IMG/VR virus record: IMGVR_UViG_3300025646_000498
Span: 1 to 20,314 of that record
DNA length: 20,314 nucleotides
Strand: one strand, 5' to 3'
Source: a virus
Positions 2,124-6,581 of the stretch are shown piece by piece. The position numbers and the translations under genes are program-made. The first letter of the stretch is position 1, and every line of letters begins with the position of its first letter. Under the pieces are notes generated by a model that saw only the letters and a program-made list of their open reading frames with translations, was not told where the DNA came from and did not search any database.

Positions 2124-3551
2124 TCAGACAATCCCACGAATATTGCGCCGCAACGGCTTCTTCCAGCCGCCAGCCGCCGCCAAACCATACGCCATCGTCG
2201 TGTGATCGGTCGCCAAACTCAAACAAAACGCATCAGCACGGTCAGGCGACTTCAACCCACGCTTCTTCATGCTGTCCTTCGACTCAACCTGAATTTTACC
2301 ATTGCTGCTGAACGTGTACCTCGGAGCCGCCAATTCCGCGAACAACTGGTCATCTTTCGGCAACTGAACATCCCGGTTCTCCAGCCACTCCTTGGCCTTA
2401 AACCACAATTCACTGCGCAAATTGTTATACAAACCAACAGCCGCAGGACGTTCGCTCACATTCAAACCCCGCGCAGGTAAACCCAGTTCGCGCAACCGAT
2501 CCAGAACGCCAGACCCCAAGCCAATGCTATCAACAATAATCTCCACTGGCCGCTTGGCAGGCGGTGACGTGTCATACTCCACCTTCACAGCACCCACCAA
2601 CTGCATCAAATCCATCCCCTGCCACGTCTTCAAAGGATGAACCACCGGACCCTGCCGCTTACACAACACGCTGCTGTCATTCCCATGCCGGGCAACATCC
2701 AACCCCCAGATCGGCATCGTAAACTCATCAATCTCAACCTGATTGGCCATCGCATAGTCAATCAGATGCACAGGAATAACCGTGTCGTCCTCGGCAGGCG
2801 GGAAATTACCCAAGACACGCACATGGTACGCCGGGCTGTTCTCGCCGTAACGCAGCTTCATCTCTTCCACAAAGTCATCCGAAACTCGGGGGCTTTCCAC
2901 GCAGGACACATGCATCGTGTACCACTGGTCACGCAGCCGGTGGTGCGTCTCATAAAACAAACCACTGTTTCGCGTCGGGTTCCCAGTCAGGATCGTCGTC
3001 GCGCTGTGACCAGACATCGATCCCGCCGCGCTTTCAAAAACAGCCTCGGGGACACCACTGGCTTCGTCCGCAATCAGCAAGACGTGCGGGCTGTGAACAC
3101 CAGCCAAGGCTTCAGGCTGTTCCGCACGGCTGGTCCGACACGAAATAAAACAATCCGCATTCCGACCCTTCAATTCCACGCGGTCACTCTTGACCTCCAG
3201 AAGGTCGTGAAACGGCGGCTTAATCTCCCGCACCAGCCTCTTCACCTCGGCGAACAAGGCGTCGAATAACTGCGCAGATGTCGGGGCTGTCATCACCACC
3301 TTGCCGGGGACACGCCACAAGACATGCCAGATCGCAGCCATCGCAACTGCCGTGGACTTGCCAACGCCGTGGCCGGAACGGACGCTGATCCGCCGCTTCC
3401 TCGGGTCTGCAATGACGCGCAGGAATTCTTCCTGCCATTCGTCTGGCTGGATACCCAGCACCTCCCGCGCAAAAGTCACGGGGTCGTTACCATACCGCTT
3501 CGCAAGCTGCAGGAACGGGTTTTCGCTTGGGTTTGTGGCTGATCTCTCCAT
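2124..3551 (-). CDS. terL: Terminase large subunit (ATPase-nuclease)
   Basis: The large terminase subunit pumps DNA into the prohead with ATP and cuts the concatemer. With the ATG at 3551 the product is 475 residues, normal for the family. The N-terminal ATPase domain has Walker A SGHGVGKST (59-67), Walker B LLIADEAS with D162 and E163, and a coupling motif TGNPT (189-193). The RNase H-like nuclease domain has the expected acidic residues in GLDVA (D285), IIVDSIG (D341) and SPDRADA (D437, D440). The start is uncertain: neither the ATG nor an in-frame TTG at 3587 has a clear ribosome-binding site. The small subunit is 2.3 kb upstream on the same strand, split off by an opposite-strand cassette. 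A terminator follows at 2021-2056. Confidence 0.96.
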   Translation of the reverse strand: MERSATNPSENPFLQLAKRYGNDPVTFAREVLGIQPDEWQEEFLRVIADPRKRRISVRSGHGVGKSTAVAMAAIWHVLWRVPGKVVMTAPTSAQLFDALFAEVKRLVREIKPPFHDLLEVKSDRVELKGRNADCFISCRTSRAEQPEALAGVHSPHVLLIADEASGVPEAVFESAAGSMSGHSATTILTGNPTRNSGLFYETHHRLRDQWYTMHVSCVESPRVSDDFVEEMKLRYGENSPAYHVRVLGNFPPAEDDTVIPVHLIDYAMANQVEIDEFTMPIWGLDVARHGNDSSVLCKRQGPVVHPLKTWQGMDLMQLVGAVKVEYDTSPPAKRPVEIIVDSIGLGSGVLDRLRELGLPARGLNVSERPAAVGLYNNLRSELWFKAKEWLENRDVQLPKDDQLFAELAAPRYTFSSNGKIQVESKDSMKKRGLKSPDRADAFCLSLATDHTTMAYGLAAAGGWKKPLRRNIRGIV

Positions 3552-3606
3552 GCTGGCAGTTTTGCAGAAAATTTTTCTGGCAGGCAACTGAATTGATGAT
3601 CGTTAA

Positions 3607-3698
3607 GGGGGGGGTGGGTTACTCCTTGAATTTTAGGCGGATCAGTCTGTCGGAACCGCCTTAGCAATGACCCCGCCGCCGCGATCAAAGGGGGGGGG
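3607..3698. repeat. Two poly-G tracts (G8 and G9) upstream of terL
   Basis: The plus strand carries eight G at 3607-3614, followed by TGGG, and nine G at 3690-3698, in the non-coding stretch between the terL start and the cassette operator. A related C4-A-C6 run on the plus strand lies at 5827-5838, just after the terS stop, in inverted sense. The tracts could mark junctions of the inserted cassette, a packaging-site element or slippage-prone DNA. Nothing in the sequence decides between these. Confidence 0.7.
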
Positions 3699-3703
3699 TA
3701 TTT

Positions 3704-3718
3704 TGCTGCGCCGCAGCA
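3704..3718. repeat. Palindromic repeat, copy A
   Basis: TGCTGCGCCGCAGCA is a 15-base inverted repeat with 7-bp arms around one base. Its first 13 bases recur exactly at 5741-5753 and, with one change, at 3884-3896. There is no T-run on either side, so it does not look like a terminator. Confidence 0.6.
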
Positions 3719-3748
3719 CAAAACCCTGCCTGATTTGCGCCGTAATCG

Positions 3749-3816
3749 CATAATCGTGATTATGTTAAATCGGTTTCCTTTTGTTTTCAGTCACTTAGCA
3801 TTTTGCTTAACATAAT
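3749..3816. promoter_or_regulatory. AT-rich dyad operator/promoter region in front of the plus-strand cassette
   Basis: CATAATC-GT-GATTATG (3749-3764) is a perfect 7-bp dyad. In addition ATTATGTTAA (3759-3768) is matched by its exact reverse complement TTAACATAAT at 3807-3816, 38 bases later. CATAAT therefore occurs three times, in both orientations, in an AT-rich pocket within GC-rich DNA. CATAAT at 3811-3816 could be a rightward -10 element, but no good -35 is seen. The layout suggests a repressor operator. The HTH protein at the end of the cassette is the obvious candidate ligand, by inference. Confidence 0.6.
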
Positions 3817-3826
3817 ACCGGCCCAA

Positions 3827-4066
3827 ATGCGCAGGCGTTCTCCCTATGCGTGCGCCATTGCGGTCGCGCAGATGCAGCATCCATGCTGCGGCGCAGCGCT
3901 CCGGCGCGCGGGCGCAATCGCCGCCGGTGCGTGCGATTGCGTGGTGCGTTCATTGGCGGATGCAAATAAATACCTTGCATTGCGTTTGCCTTTGCAAATA
4001 GACTGGCAACAGGCGGCGCGCTTCGCGTCGTCGTATCGCGCGACCGGGAAAACCCGGCGCGCATAG
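3827..4066 (+). CDS. Doubtful small ORF at the head of the cassette
   Basis: An ATG at 3827 opens 79 codons encoding a basic protein with six cysteines (in the first half) and a C-terminal part resembling a short helical domain (LADANKYLALRLPLQIDWQQ). There is no ribosome-binding site. The ATG falls only about 11 bases after the possible -10 element CATAAT at 3811-3816, so a leaderless message is conceivable. Codon choice (TTG leucine, GCG alanine) resembles the genes that follow. Against it, the first half reads through a GC-rich inverted repeat (3874-3900), and an opposite-strand frame of similar length exists at 3844-4098. Apart from this ORF, the stretch 3552-4082 holds only the G tracts, the dyads and the repeats listed separately. 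Confidence 0.25.
   Translation: MRRRSPYACAIAVAQMQHPCCGAALRRAGAIAAGACDCVVRSLADANKYLALRLPLQIDWQQAARFASSYRATGKTRRA
3874..3900. repeat. Palindromic repeat, copy B (left side of cassette)
   Basis: GCAGCAT-CC-ATGCTGC is a perfect inverted repeat, continued by GGCGCAGCGCT. The whole 27 bases align to 5731-5757 on the same strand with only four differences, so the pair are direct repeats lying on either side of the cassette genes. They may be leftover ends of a mobile unit or dispersed REP-like repeats. Confidence 0.6.
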
Positions 4067-4082
4067 GCAAAGGGAAAAGACA

Positions 4083-4748
4083 ATGTTTCATCTGACAATC
4101 AAGAGCCGCAACCAAAAGACCGGGCCGATTCCGGTTTCCACATCCACCGCGATCACTTGCCCGGTGTCTTGTCCATTTAATAACGGTGGCGGATGCTATG
4201 CCGCATATGGTCCGCTTGCCCTGTTTTGGGCAAAGGTCACAAGCGGTGAAAGCGGAGATGATTTCGACCAGTTTTGCCGCCAGATTGCCGCTTTGCCAGA
4301 TGGTCAATTGTGGCGGCACAATCAGGCTGGTGATTTGCCCGGTGAAGGTGACGCGGTAGACGTAAAGGCCTTGCGCAAGCTTGCCAAGGCAAGCAAAGGC
4401 AAGCGCGGCTTTACATATACACACAAGCCATTGCGGAGAAAAGCGGAGCGGCAAGCGGTGGCGGATGCATGCGCAAGCGGCTTGGTCATCAATCTATCTG
4501 GCAACAATCTTGATCACGCGGACAAGCTTGCCGCGCTTGGCATTGCCCCGGTGGTGGCGGTGGTGCCATCTGACACCACCGAAAACACGAAGACACCGCA
4601 AGGCCGCAAGGTGGTGATCTGCCCGGCAACAATCCGCGACGATATCTCTTGCGCAACTTGCGGCCTATGCGCGCGCATGCGCGATGCAATCGTGGGATTT
4701 CCCGCCCATGGTCCGGGCAAGAAAAAAGCGGACAAGGTGGCGGCATGA
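4083..4748 (+). CDS. Cys-cluster protein, DUF7227/GP88-like
   Basis: A 221-residue protein with two cysteine clusters: C26-x3-C30-x7-C38 near the N-terminus (TCPVSCPF...GGGCYA) and C180, C190, C193, C196 near the C-terminus (CPAT...SCATCGLC). Between them lie LWRHNQAGDLPG, GFTYTHK and NLSGNNLDHADKL. The pattern resembles phage proteins of the DUF7227/GP88 type, whose biochemical role I do not know. The clusters suggest a zinc or iron-sulphur site, which is inference. The ATG at 4083 has AGGGAAAAGAC before it. It heads a plus-strand operon, and its stop overlaps the next start as ATGA. Leucine TTG/CTT and alanine GCG are frequent, unlike neighbouring phage genes, which favours separate origin. 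The gene is certain; the family name is less so. Confidence 0.8.
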   Translation: MFHLTIKSRNQKTGPIPVSTSTAITCPVSCPFNNGGGCYAAYGPLALFWAKVTSGESGDDFDQFCRQIAALPDGQLWRHNQAGDLPGEGDAVDVKALRKLAKASKGKRGFTYTHKPLRRKAERQAVADACASGLVINLSGNNLDHADKLAALGIAPVVAVVPSDTTENTKTPQGRKVVICPATIRDDISCATCGLCARMRDAIVGFPAHGPGKKKADKVAA

Positions 4749-4822
4749 TCCGCGACGCAATCGGCTTCACAATCTTTTGCGCGGCGTTTTATGCCGCGCC
4801 ATATCTGGCAACGATTTTCTGA
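4745..4822 (+). CDS. 25-residue hydrophobic peptide
   Basis: A tiny frame whose ATG overlaps the stop of the Cys-cluster gene as ATGA. It encodes 25 residues that are almost entirely hydrophobic or aromatic after an N-terminal MIRDA, with a single cysteine, enough for one membrane segment. The next gene starts 12 bases after its stop. Position and overlap argue for translation. The small size and absence of its own ribosome-binding site leave doubt. If real it is likely a small membrane peptide of the cassette, function unknown. Confidence 0.5.
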   Translation: MIRDAIGFTIFCAAFYAAPYLATIF

Positions 4823-4834
4823 AAGGGCAAAATC

Positions 4835-5110
4835 ATGACAATCAACAAAGCAATCCGCCACGCGGTCGCAACGGTCCGGATGCATCCATGGGGCGCGCGG
4901 TCGTATATCGTTGAAACATATTGCCCGGACCGGCACGCATGGATGACAAGCCCGCAAATGCCATTCCACGCGGCGCGGGAATGCATGACGGAAAAGCGTC
5001 ACGCGGTCGCGCTTGTCGCGCTTGGCTGGACAAAACGCAACGCAGAAAACGCGGCATATTATTGTGCCGGACCGTTGCGCGACCGGGTGACGGCAAGCCT
5101 AAAAAATTGA
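4835..5110 (+). CDS. Hypothetical cassette protein, 91 residues
   Basis: A 91-residue protein with no recognised family. It contains WGARSYIVETYCPDRHAW and, later, GWTKRNAENAAYYCAGPL, with three cysteines in total and no signal or membrane segment. The start ATG at 4835 is preceded by GAAAGGG at a usable distance. It follows the 25-residue peptide by 12 bases and shares the cassette's TTG/GCG-rich codon use. Its stop codon lies inside the outer arm of a long two-tier inverted repeat (5107-5157), so the end of this gene and the structure are superposed. A small, standalone orphan protein in a moron-like cassette makes it a candidate host-interaction factor, by inference only. Confidence 0.75.
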   Translation: MTINKAIRHAVATVRMHPWGARSYIVETYCPDRHAWMTSPQMPFHAARECMTEKRHAVALVALGWTKRNAENAAYYCAGPLRDRVTASLKN

Positions 5111-5157
5111 TTGCAGCAAAGCGCGCCCGGCATGCGGGCGCGTCATGGTGCAATCAA
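5107..5157. repeat. Two-tier perfect inverted repeat between cassette genes
   Basis: The outer arms TTGATTGCA (5107-5115) and TGCAATCAA (5149-5157) pair perfectly over 9 bp. The inner arms CGCGCCCG (5122-5129) and CGGGCGCG (5135-5142) pair over 8 bp around the loop GCATG. The two stems are separated by symmetrical 6-base internal loops. No T-run follows, so it is not a simple terminator. It lies between the 91-residue gene and the ribosome-binding site of the 57-residue gene. It may control expression of the downstream pair or serve as a processing or binding site. Confidence 0.8.
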
Positions 5158-5175
5158 ATGAAAAGGAGACACCAA

Positions 5176-5349
5176 ATGAAAACAGTTTTTACCGGCAGCG
5201 AATTGAAAGCGCTTTACGAAATAGTGACGCAAGATATTGAGTTTTCGCAACCATGCGGCGCGGATTTGGCGGACGTGGAATATACGCGCTTTTTGGCATA
5301 TCGTGCGAGCGCTTACCAAAAGCTGCGCGAAGCGGTGGGCGCGGCATGA
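5176..5349 (+). CDS. Hypothetical cassette protein, 57 residues
   Basis: A 57-residue mixed-charge protein starting MKTVFTGSELKALYEIVTQD, with the look of a small helical fold and one cysteine. The start at 5176 has a strong ribosome-binding site (AAAAGGAGACACC). The stop overlaps the start of the HTH gene as ATGA, so the two are translationally coupled. It is separated from the upstream cassette genes by the two-tier hairpin at 5107-5157. No family is recognised. An antitoxin-like partner or a small inhibitor encoded next to its regulator are both conceivable, but the sequence alone does not decide. Confidence 0.75.
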   Translation: MKTVFTGSELKALYEIVTQDIEFSQPCGADLADVEYTRFLAYRASAYQKLREAVGAA

Positions 5350-5552
5350 CGCCTGACGACATAAAACGCGCGCGCGGCGCGCTTGGCCTAAGCGCTGCCG
5401 ATTTAGCGGCAATGTTGGAGACTGACGAAAACACATTGCGGCGCATGGAAATGCGTCGCGATACCAAAAACGCGCGGGAACCGGCGCGGCGCATGGCGCG
5501 TTTGCTTTCCGCATATCTAGACGGTTGGCGTCCGCCAGACTGGCCAGAATAA
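5346..5552 (+). CDS. Small HTH (XRE-type) DNA-binding regulator
   Basis: A 68-residue protein: MTPDDIKRARGALGLSAADL begins a helix-turn-helix of the XRE/Cro type (about residues 5-40: ALGLSAADLAAML, then TDENTLRRME), followed by a helical tail ending LSAYLDGWRPPDWPE. That tail style is familiar from small alphaproteobacterial HTH proteins, so it hints at the host clade. It is the last gene of the plus-strand cassette, coupled by ATGA to the gene before it, and is followed 25 bases later by a terminator. A likely role is repression of its own operon at the dyads at 3749-3816, by inference. Size and last-gene position match anti-CRISPR-associated (Aca) regulators, which fits the cassette but is not proof. 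Confidence 0.85.
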   Translation: MTPDDIKRARGALGLSAADLAAMLETDENTLRRMEMRRDTKNAREPARRMARLLSAYLDGWRPPDWPE

Positions 5553-5577
5553 ACCGCCAGACAATCAAAACAGAAAA

Positions 5578-5607
5578 CCCGCCCGGCAATCGCCCGGCGG
5601 GTTTTTT
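5578..5607 (+). terminator. Terminator of the plus-strand cassette
   Basis: CCCGCCCGGC and GCCCGGCGGG form a GC-rich stem with one mismatch around the loop AATC, followed directly by TTTTTT. It lies 25 bases after the HTH gene stop and should close the cassette transcript, shielding terS from convergent transcription. Confidence 0.9.
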
Positions 5608-5841
5608 CGTGCGCATTGGCAAGCGCAAATTGCCGCGCGTGGCATTGCGCGCTTGTATGCATGACGCGCCGGGCGGAATTGAATTGCGCCGCGCGCCGAT
5701 ACAATCACACGCAAGACGATATTCGCATTCGCAGCATTCGTGCTGCGCCGCAGGGCTGTGGACCGCCTCCCATGACGAAATCTTGTCTGGGAATCTGAAA
5801 ACTGAAAATTCGGAACGGGTTTCAAAACCCCACCCCCCATC
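5608..5841. other. Non-coding stretch between cassette terminator and terS
   Basis: No convincing gene is seen on either strand. The stretch contains palindromic repeat copy C (5731-5757) and a short tandem CTGAAAA (about 5797-5808). It ends with a C4-A-C6 run next to the terS stop. Its base composition left of about 5750 resembles the cassette; to the right it resembles the phage genes, so the right-hand junction of the insertion may lie near there. Confidence 0.5.
5731..5757. repeat. Palindromic repeat, copy C (right side of cassette)
   Basis: CGCAGCA-TTCG-TGCTGCG is a perfect 7-bp hairpin (5730-5747), continued by CCGCAGGGCT. The 27 bases match copy B at 3874-3900 at 23 positions in the same orientation, and share TGCTGCGCCGCAG exactly with copy A at 3704-3716. 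Confidence 0.6.
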
Positions 5842-6312
5842 TTAGTTTTCGGCATCCTCTTCCTCAACATCGGTCACGTCTTCGTACACCGCATCGATGA
5901 CCGCACGTTCAGCCTCTTGGCTTATCAGAGCCGCCGCTTGGCTATGCAGGTCTTCCACCCGGAGCGTCACGGTCGTCTCTTTCTGCCGCGTGTCGTAGAC
6001 CGTATTCAGCTTGCTTGCGATCCACTTGTCAGTATCCACCTGCAGCCGCGCCACGTTCACGGTCTCTGGCGTGGCCATCTGCGCCGTCTCCACGGCCCTC
6101 TGGGCGTATGCATGGCCAGCCAGCTTCAGCGCCTCATCGTACCGCGCCTTACGTCCCTCTTCGTTCTCCAGCCACTTGTACCATGTGCGCCAGCCCAGAC
6201 CCCACTCAAGGATCATCTGGCGCACGGGACGGCCAGATATGATTTCTTCGAAAATCACATCTTCACCAATTTCGTCCAACTGCTTGATCCGTTCTTTGGT
6301 GATCCGTCCCAT
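5842..6312 (-). CDS. terS: Terminase small subunit
   Basis: A 156-residue protein with the layout of Sf6-like small terminase subunits, which recognise the packaging site and hand DNA to TerL. A helix-turn-helix region occupies about residues 18-50 (EEIISGRPVRQMILEWGLGW, then WYKWLE). A central helical, oligomerising region follows, with ARLQVDTDKWIASKLNTVYD (about 88-107), typical of the family's VDxxKWxASKL motif. The C-terminus is very acidic and ends EEEDAEN, suiting contact with TerL. The ATG at 6312 overlaps the stop of the DUF6378-like gene by one base (TGATG). TerL normally follows directly. Here a plus-strand cassette intervenes, so TerL either has its own promoter or relies on read-through. 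Confidence 0.88.
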   Translation of the reverse strand: MGRITKERIKQLDEIGEDVIFEEIISGRPVRQMILEWGLGWRTWYKWLENEEGRKARYDEALKLAGHAYAQRAVETAQMATPETVNVARLQVDTDKWIASKLNTVYDTRQKETTVTLRVEDLHSQAAALISQEAERAVIDAVYEDVTDVEEEDAEN

Positions 6313-6581
6313 CAGACCTTGCCCTTCAGTTCAGCGGCCAGCGCCGCATATCCAATCAAATCAATCACGCTGTCTTCTGTGTACCCCTCAGCCAACCGCG
6401 CGATCTTCACGTCGGCCATCATCACGCAGACTTGCCACGGCTCCACATCCACCCGCAGCAACTGCGACCATCGGTCAGCGATCCGCTGGAAATTCACCTC
6501 AGGTGGGCCGTAGTCCTTGTTGCGGTCGCCATGGATCAGCGTGGATGCCTGATCCAGCGCGTTCTGTCGCACTGTCGTCAT
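6312..6581 (-). CDS. DUF6378-like phage protein
   Basis: An 89-residue protein with the hallmark GDRNKDYGPPEVNFQRIADR (about 18-37), then MMADVKIARLAEGYTEDSVI and DLIGYAALAAEL near the end. This matches my memory of DUF6378, a small domain common in phage genomes. The GD-x-YG-P and KxAR-x-D-x-GYAA pattern also recalls all-alpha NTP-pyrophosphatase-like (MazG-type) folds, so a nucleotide-related role is possible but unproven. It overlaps the upstream 58-residue gene as ATGA and the downstream terS as TGATG, so all three are translated as a coupled block. Confidence 0.85.
   Translation of the reverse strand: MTTVRQNALDQASTLIHGDRNKDYGPPEVNFQRIADRWSQLLRVDVEPWQVCVMMADVKIARLAEGYTEDSVIDLIGYAALAAELKGKV

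Follow-up and report, generated by a model that had tools for sequence, protein, structure and literature searches.

It is well documented that filamentous and tailless phages use the host recombination enzymes XerC and XerD (XerCD) (PMC10589892, PMC2731167). CTXphi/VGJphi, XacF1, Jorvik and the PM2-like and gokushovirus prophages all carry a dif-like phage attachment site (attP) and no integrase of their own, and they are filamentous, tailless or small single-stranded DNA (ssDNA) phages. We describe here a dif-like site, which closely resembles the site used by bacteria for separating their chromosomes, in the IMG/VR virus record IMGVR_UViG_3300025646_000498 of a marine-type phage (positions 1 to 20,314; this whole stretch of 20,314 nucleotides is called the window), and a cassette of five small genes that lies next to it. 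As in an integrative element using Xer (IMEX), an integrase of the phage's own seems to be missing: no tyrosine integrase (PF00589) was detected in 20 records, some of which are fragments and in which serine integrases were not searched for. In contrast to the systems listed above, the site is flanked by tailed-phage terminase genes, and the records reach lengths of 39 kb.

Two other known arrangements are comparable. In phage P1, the loxP-Cre system is found together with pac, i.e., a recombination site lies near the packaging region. Our locus is similar in this placement and in its potential for genome circularisation, but here host XerC/XerD would act, no phage tyrosine recombinase having been found, and where the genome ends lie is presumptive. 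The cassette itself resembles phage morons and the operons of anti-CRISPR (acr) and anti-CRISPR-associated (aca) genes, such as AcrIF1-Aca1 of JBD30, in being a self-contained operon among virion genes, with variable small genes, a terminal helix-turn-helix (HTH) gene and its own terminator. It differs from them in that the HTH protein has no useful similarity to Aca1 (the one Aca family compared), the leading gene is predicted to belong to an iron-sulphur (Fe-S) enzyme family, and a dif-like site lies alongside. We find it likely that the locus as a whole is best explained as a moron operon occupying a hotspot next to a site for host XerCD, including what we propose below for XerCD, the HTH protein and the Fe-S protein.

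An accessory operon at a terS-terL hotspot

The terL relatives of the window (numbered L002, L003, etc.) were gathered from IMG/VR, and the comparison refers to the following features.

2124-3551, minus strand: terL, large terminase, left flank (phrog_2, E 1.9e-44; Terminase_6N)
3743-3770, plus strand: dif-like XerC/XerD site of 28 bp, inside an AT-rich dyad; the sequence within it reads AATCGCATAA-TCGTGA-TTATGTTAAAT
3743-3753, 3754-3759 and 3760-3770: its XerC arm, centre TCGTGA and XerD arm TTATGTTAAAT
3805-3815, minus strand: inverted XerD half-site TTATGTTAAGC, forming a dyad with 3760-3770, with no XerC arm; kept in L002
3945-5841: inserted segment when compared with the empty L002 site (blastn of L002)
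5842-6312, minus strand: terS, small terminase, right flank (PF20901, E 6.6e-14; phrog_1482)

The five-gene plus-strand cassette between terS and terL is confirmed. Its genes span 4083-5552; the first two and the last two overlap by ATGA (4745-4748 and 5346-5349), and a terminator lies behind, just as a preliminary description of this DNA had it. The closest relative, L002, whose TerL is 100% identical, has no cassette, and its terS-terL gap is only about 410 bp long. Its blastn homology to the window stops at 3945 on the left; on the right it restarts within terS, at 5870. Judged from these breakpoints and the short gap, the cassette is either an insertion of about 1.9 kb in the window or a loss in L002.

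The same pattern recurs among other relatives. On the TerL tree, the presence and absence of the cassette require six or more changes, which holds for well supported branches too, and near neighbours of opposite state are the window and L002, L007 and L008, L017 and L013, and L019 beside L018 and L021. The content of the slot varies too. A cassette led by a DUF7227 gene is present in L003, L004, L005 and L011, and a different cysteine-rich lead gene is found in L007, L012 and L017 (about 320 residues) and in L019 (237 residues); those of L007, L017 and L019 match phrog_2554, as does the lead protein of the window. The HTH gene is retained with 82% identity in L003-L005, L007 and L011, 75% in L012 and 54% in L019.

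Because of the empty sites, the swaps of the lead gene and the repeated changes on the tree, we regard the cassette as occupying a moron slot and not as a set of packaging genes, which would be expected in every relative, whereas these genes are not universal. The comparison shows an accessory (moron) operon that ends in a terminator of its own and has been gained, lost and swapped for other alleles at a single terS-terL hotspot. The idea of a mobile accessory unit, put forward in the preliminary description, is thus borne out by the empty sites in close relatives, the allele swaps and the interleaved states on the TerL tree.

Two minor features of these gaps should be mentioned. In L004 and L007, the stretch between terS and the HTH gene contains tandem repeats whose translation gives AQRPKGP-like runs. 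In the window, the near-palindrome TGCTGCGSCGCAG occurs at 3704-3718, 3884-3896 and 5741-5753 (chance expectation 0.01); two of the three copies are near the cassette ends, and L002 retains both terL-side copies.

A conserved dif-like site in the phage backbone

About 175 bp separate the hotspot from a dif-like site that is a conserved part of the phage backbone. A dif site of 28 bp is made of an 11-bp XerC arm, a 6-bp centre and a well conserved 11-bp XerD arm (PMC2731167), and the window site has this layout. Its XerD arm is the same as the arm printed for many beta- and gammaproteobacterial dif sites (PMC2731167). The core ATAA-N6-TTATGTTAAAT had no match in 100 shuffles, and the window contains a single complete site. 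The AT-rich dyad that had been noted in front of the cassette does exist, but it belongs to the backbone and not to the cassette, being kept at 93% in the cassette-less L002.

Among complete terS-terL gaps, 62 of 67 contain the site, always on the strand opposite to terL, and none was found elsewhere in 748 kb; it should be kept in mind that the search pattern pre-set most of ATAA and TTATGT[AT]A, that the records are akin and that some were picked via the motif. Exactly one site is present in 18 of 20 records, and a reversed-pattern control gave no matches. Of three records checked, two close into a circle, their ends overlapping by 59 and 99 bp. When 41 non-redundant sites were aligned, conservation began at dif position 5 and ended at position 28, with sharp borders and a free centre, and the A at position 17, which is outside the search pattern, was invariant. 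A scan of viral contigs for the motif only gave at least 80 loci, and the TerL family of the window was present at 21 of the 80 among the matches listed.

It could be supposed that the 28-mer is a phage operator or promoter element and not a recombination site, as it is an AT-rich inverted repeat upstream of terL, found on one strand throughout. The asymmetric arms, the variable 6-bp centre and the borders that fit dif argue against this idea, as does the identity of the XerD arm with that of many beta- and gammaproteobacterial dif sites. Moreover, several relatives with 57-59% TerL identity have the order dif-terS-terL, i.e., their site is upstream of terS and not directly before terL. We thus consider such an element unlikely.

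The proximity of cassette and site raises another question, namely whether XerCD shuttles the cassette between two sites as a dif module, which is what has been proposed for the pdif modules of Acinetobacter plasmids. Although the cassette adjoins a dif-like site at a hotspot, that site is the only complete one in the window, with none at the terS-side end, and the breakpoint of L002 is separated from it by the distance given above. A two-site module was rejected on the single complete site, and we see hardly any likelihood in this explanation.

Variants of the site were also seen. In L006, L009, L010, L072, L073, L075, L079 and L081, a second, inverted TTATGTTAA lies about 27-36 bp from the dif-like site, a spacing similar to that in the window. 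In a TerL lineage comprising L013, L014, L017 and L023, the dif-like site is degenerate at best, with ATATGTTCAC in place of TTATGTTAAA.

Possible roles of the dif-like site

The presence of a dif-like site next to the cassette suggests that these integrase-less phages make use of host recombination enzymes. We infer that the site would be recombined by host XerC/XerD, and it may serve one of three purposes: circularisation of a terminally repeated genome, resolution of dimers, or integration at the host dif. If the terS-terL gap belongs to a terminal repeat, each end of the linear genome would carry one copy of the site, and recombination between the two by XerCD would close the injected DNA into a circle, much as Cre acts at loxP in P1. 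In the alternative case, one copy would be used as attP at the host dif.

Circularisation is favoured because the terminal repeat of phiM5, the closest isolate (357 bp, ending 36 bp before terL), adjoins terL, and because the segment upstream of terL common to the window and L002 has a similar size. On the other hand, common lysogeny is disfavoured, since the TerL profile found only three relatives in 84,980 species genomes. All three are contigs of metagenome-assembled genomes (MAGs), 10-35 kb long and with no chromosome junction (few peptide seeds). The window has no tRNA, and a tRNA as insertion target is not supported.

Several observations speak against our explanation. The region read in phiM5, terminal repeat included, has no dif-like match, and the strict motif is missing from 5 of the 67 terS-terL gaps. 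The prophage search revealed no integrated form. The likeness to dif was judged against published dif sites, and an AT-rich operator or promoter could be conserved equally well. Finally, the radical-SAM (S-adenosylmethionine) Z-scores of the lead protein, described below, are all under 8.

A wider proposal is that tailed phages of a broad, integrase-less group have a single dif site each, placed at the packaging genes, that host XerC/XerD circularise, resolve or integrate their genomes, and that accessory operons led by cysteine-rich radical-SAM-like proteins are exchanged at a hotspot on the flank of the site; we give this proposal an even chance. The literature searched, in which subscription journals are thinly covered, yielded no tailed phage that has a dif beside its terminase genes. 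If true, the proposal would extend the use of XerCD from filamentous and small tailless phages to an abundant group of tailed phages. It would also make the dif centre a handle for host assignment, because this centre is conserved within a species and variable between species (PMC2731167). When the centre hexamer was used as a host pointer in 398 genomes of one phylum, no clear group emerged, and the motif subset with centre NNNBNA was present in just 38 of the 398.

Genes of the cassette and their regulation

The cassette and its putative signals are as follows, all on the plus strand.

3975-4004: candidate promoter TTGCAT-18-TAGACT, with the direct repeat TTTGCCTTTGC in its spacer as candidate HTH operator
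4083-4748: lead gene, DUF7227 cysteine-cluster protein, 221 residues (PF23872, E 1.9e-89)
4745-4822: hydrophobic peptide of 25 residues, ATGA-coupled to the lead gene
4835-5110: orphan of 91 residues
5176-5349: orphan of 57 residues
5346-5552: HTH regulator of 68 residues (phrog_14076, E 8.2e-17)
About 5578-5607: rho-independent terminator (-25.7 kcal/mol, z -4.76, T6 at the end)

The lead protein is a clear member of DUF7227 (299.6 bits against a cut-off of 27), a family widespread in phages, including PAK_P1-like phages and cyanophages. Seven cysteines are invariant across 54 homologues. Its AlphaFold model (predicted local distance difference test, pLDDT, 97) had no Foldseek match at E 0.001 or better, and in a fold search of the Protein Data Bank (PDB) no family reached a Z of 8. 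In VIA-align, the ten best rows were all radical-SAM enzymes, with Z of at most 6.6, which may reflect merely a common barrel. The canonical radical-SAM motif CX3CX2C is absent; the invariant motif is CX3CX7C plus a second cysteine set. With moderate confidence, the model can be read as a cysteine-rich, radical-SAM-like barrel. As for the biochemical function of the cassette, we infer that this protein would be an Fe-S, radical-SAM-like enzyme acting with the small membrane peptide. No function is assigned to DUF7227/phrog_2554 or to the GP88 (PF17338) phage proteins, and no paper on DUF7227/phrog_2554 was found in the literature searched; here the family is part of a swappable dif-side cassette, which gives it a genomic setting. 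In a distant relative (L252:6080-6922), the dif-adjacent lead gene on the opposite strand encodes GP88, another cysteine-containing phage family.

The slot of the 25-residue peptide holds a hydrophobic 25-mer in L083/L084, L007 and L017 as well. A short hydrophobic open reading frame (ORF) follows DUF7227 at 10 of 79 loci, compared with 7 of 200 control ORFs (p 0.0065, the loci not being independent). The 91-residue orphan has no significant Pfam, PHROG or NCBIfam match and one viral relative, in L318 (76%), and family searches gave no match for the 57-residue orphan.

Such a peptide, coupled to the lead gene, could point to a toxin-antitoxin or superinfection-exclusion module, in which toxicity or protection would come from this peptide or an orphan, and the HTH protein, which has weak similarity to MqsA-, Xre- and CapH-type regulators, would be an antitoxin-repressor. 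However, no toxin family was found, the operon has five genes with an enzyme-like leader, and the slot is filled by differing small proteins, which makes this possibility very unlikely.

The preliminary description had placed the HTH operator at 3749-3816. This is the dif-like stretch, which L002 keeps while having no HTH gene, and the dyad was rejected as HTH operator on this ground. A better candidate for HTH binding is offered by the repeats at 3975-4004. The general motif, TTGnnn, a spacer of 17-18 bp with TTTGCnTTTGC repeats, and TAGAnn or TATATA, lies about 80-110 bp upstream of the lead gene in the window. It is found once each in the window, L003, L004, L005, L007 and L011 and in no empty site examined, and all five of these relatives have an HTH gene 82% identical to that of the window. 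Transcription from the putative promoter of the cassette would start at about 4010, and the HTH protein would bind the repeats between -35 and -10, limiting its own operon. Neither this promoter (simple sigma-70 scan) nor the terminator, despite its strong fold, was among the results of simple consensus scans, and an Rfam scan gave no match above the gathering score.

Variable small orphans, a constant terminal HTH gene and a candidate operator inside the promoter are also what one would expect of an operon for anti-CRISPR or another form of counter-defence that ends with an Aca-type repressor, and this architecture, pointed out earlier, holds. The assignment itself is not supported. In addition to the Aca1 comparison, a PDB search of the HTH protein gave no Aca match, PADLOC and solved structures gave weak generic HTH matches only, and the largest gene belongs to the large cysteine-rich phage family described above. 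An Aca/Acr assignment was set aside because nothing matched in these comparisons, and we regard a counter-defence operon as rather unlikely. New accessory genes, some of them possibly for counter-defence, may be sought beside the dif-like site.

Codon choice had been said to set the cassette apart from the phage genes. It does differ from most of them, with CTG used for 9% of leucines versus 53%, and a deviation (chi-squared per degree of freedom) of 3.0 versus 1.2-1.6. However, terL deviates more (4.3), and the primase gene also deviates (2.8). Stops in the relatives upstream of the ATG at 3551 make this codon a more likely terL start than the TTG at 3587. On the other side of the cassette, terS is adjoined by a DUF6378 gene (6312-6581), whose family is called phosphofructokinase in PHROGs, apparently a misannotation for a protein of 89 residues.

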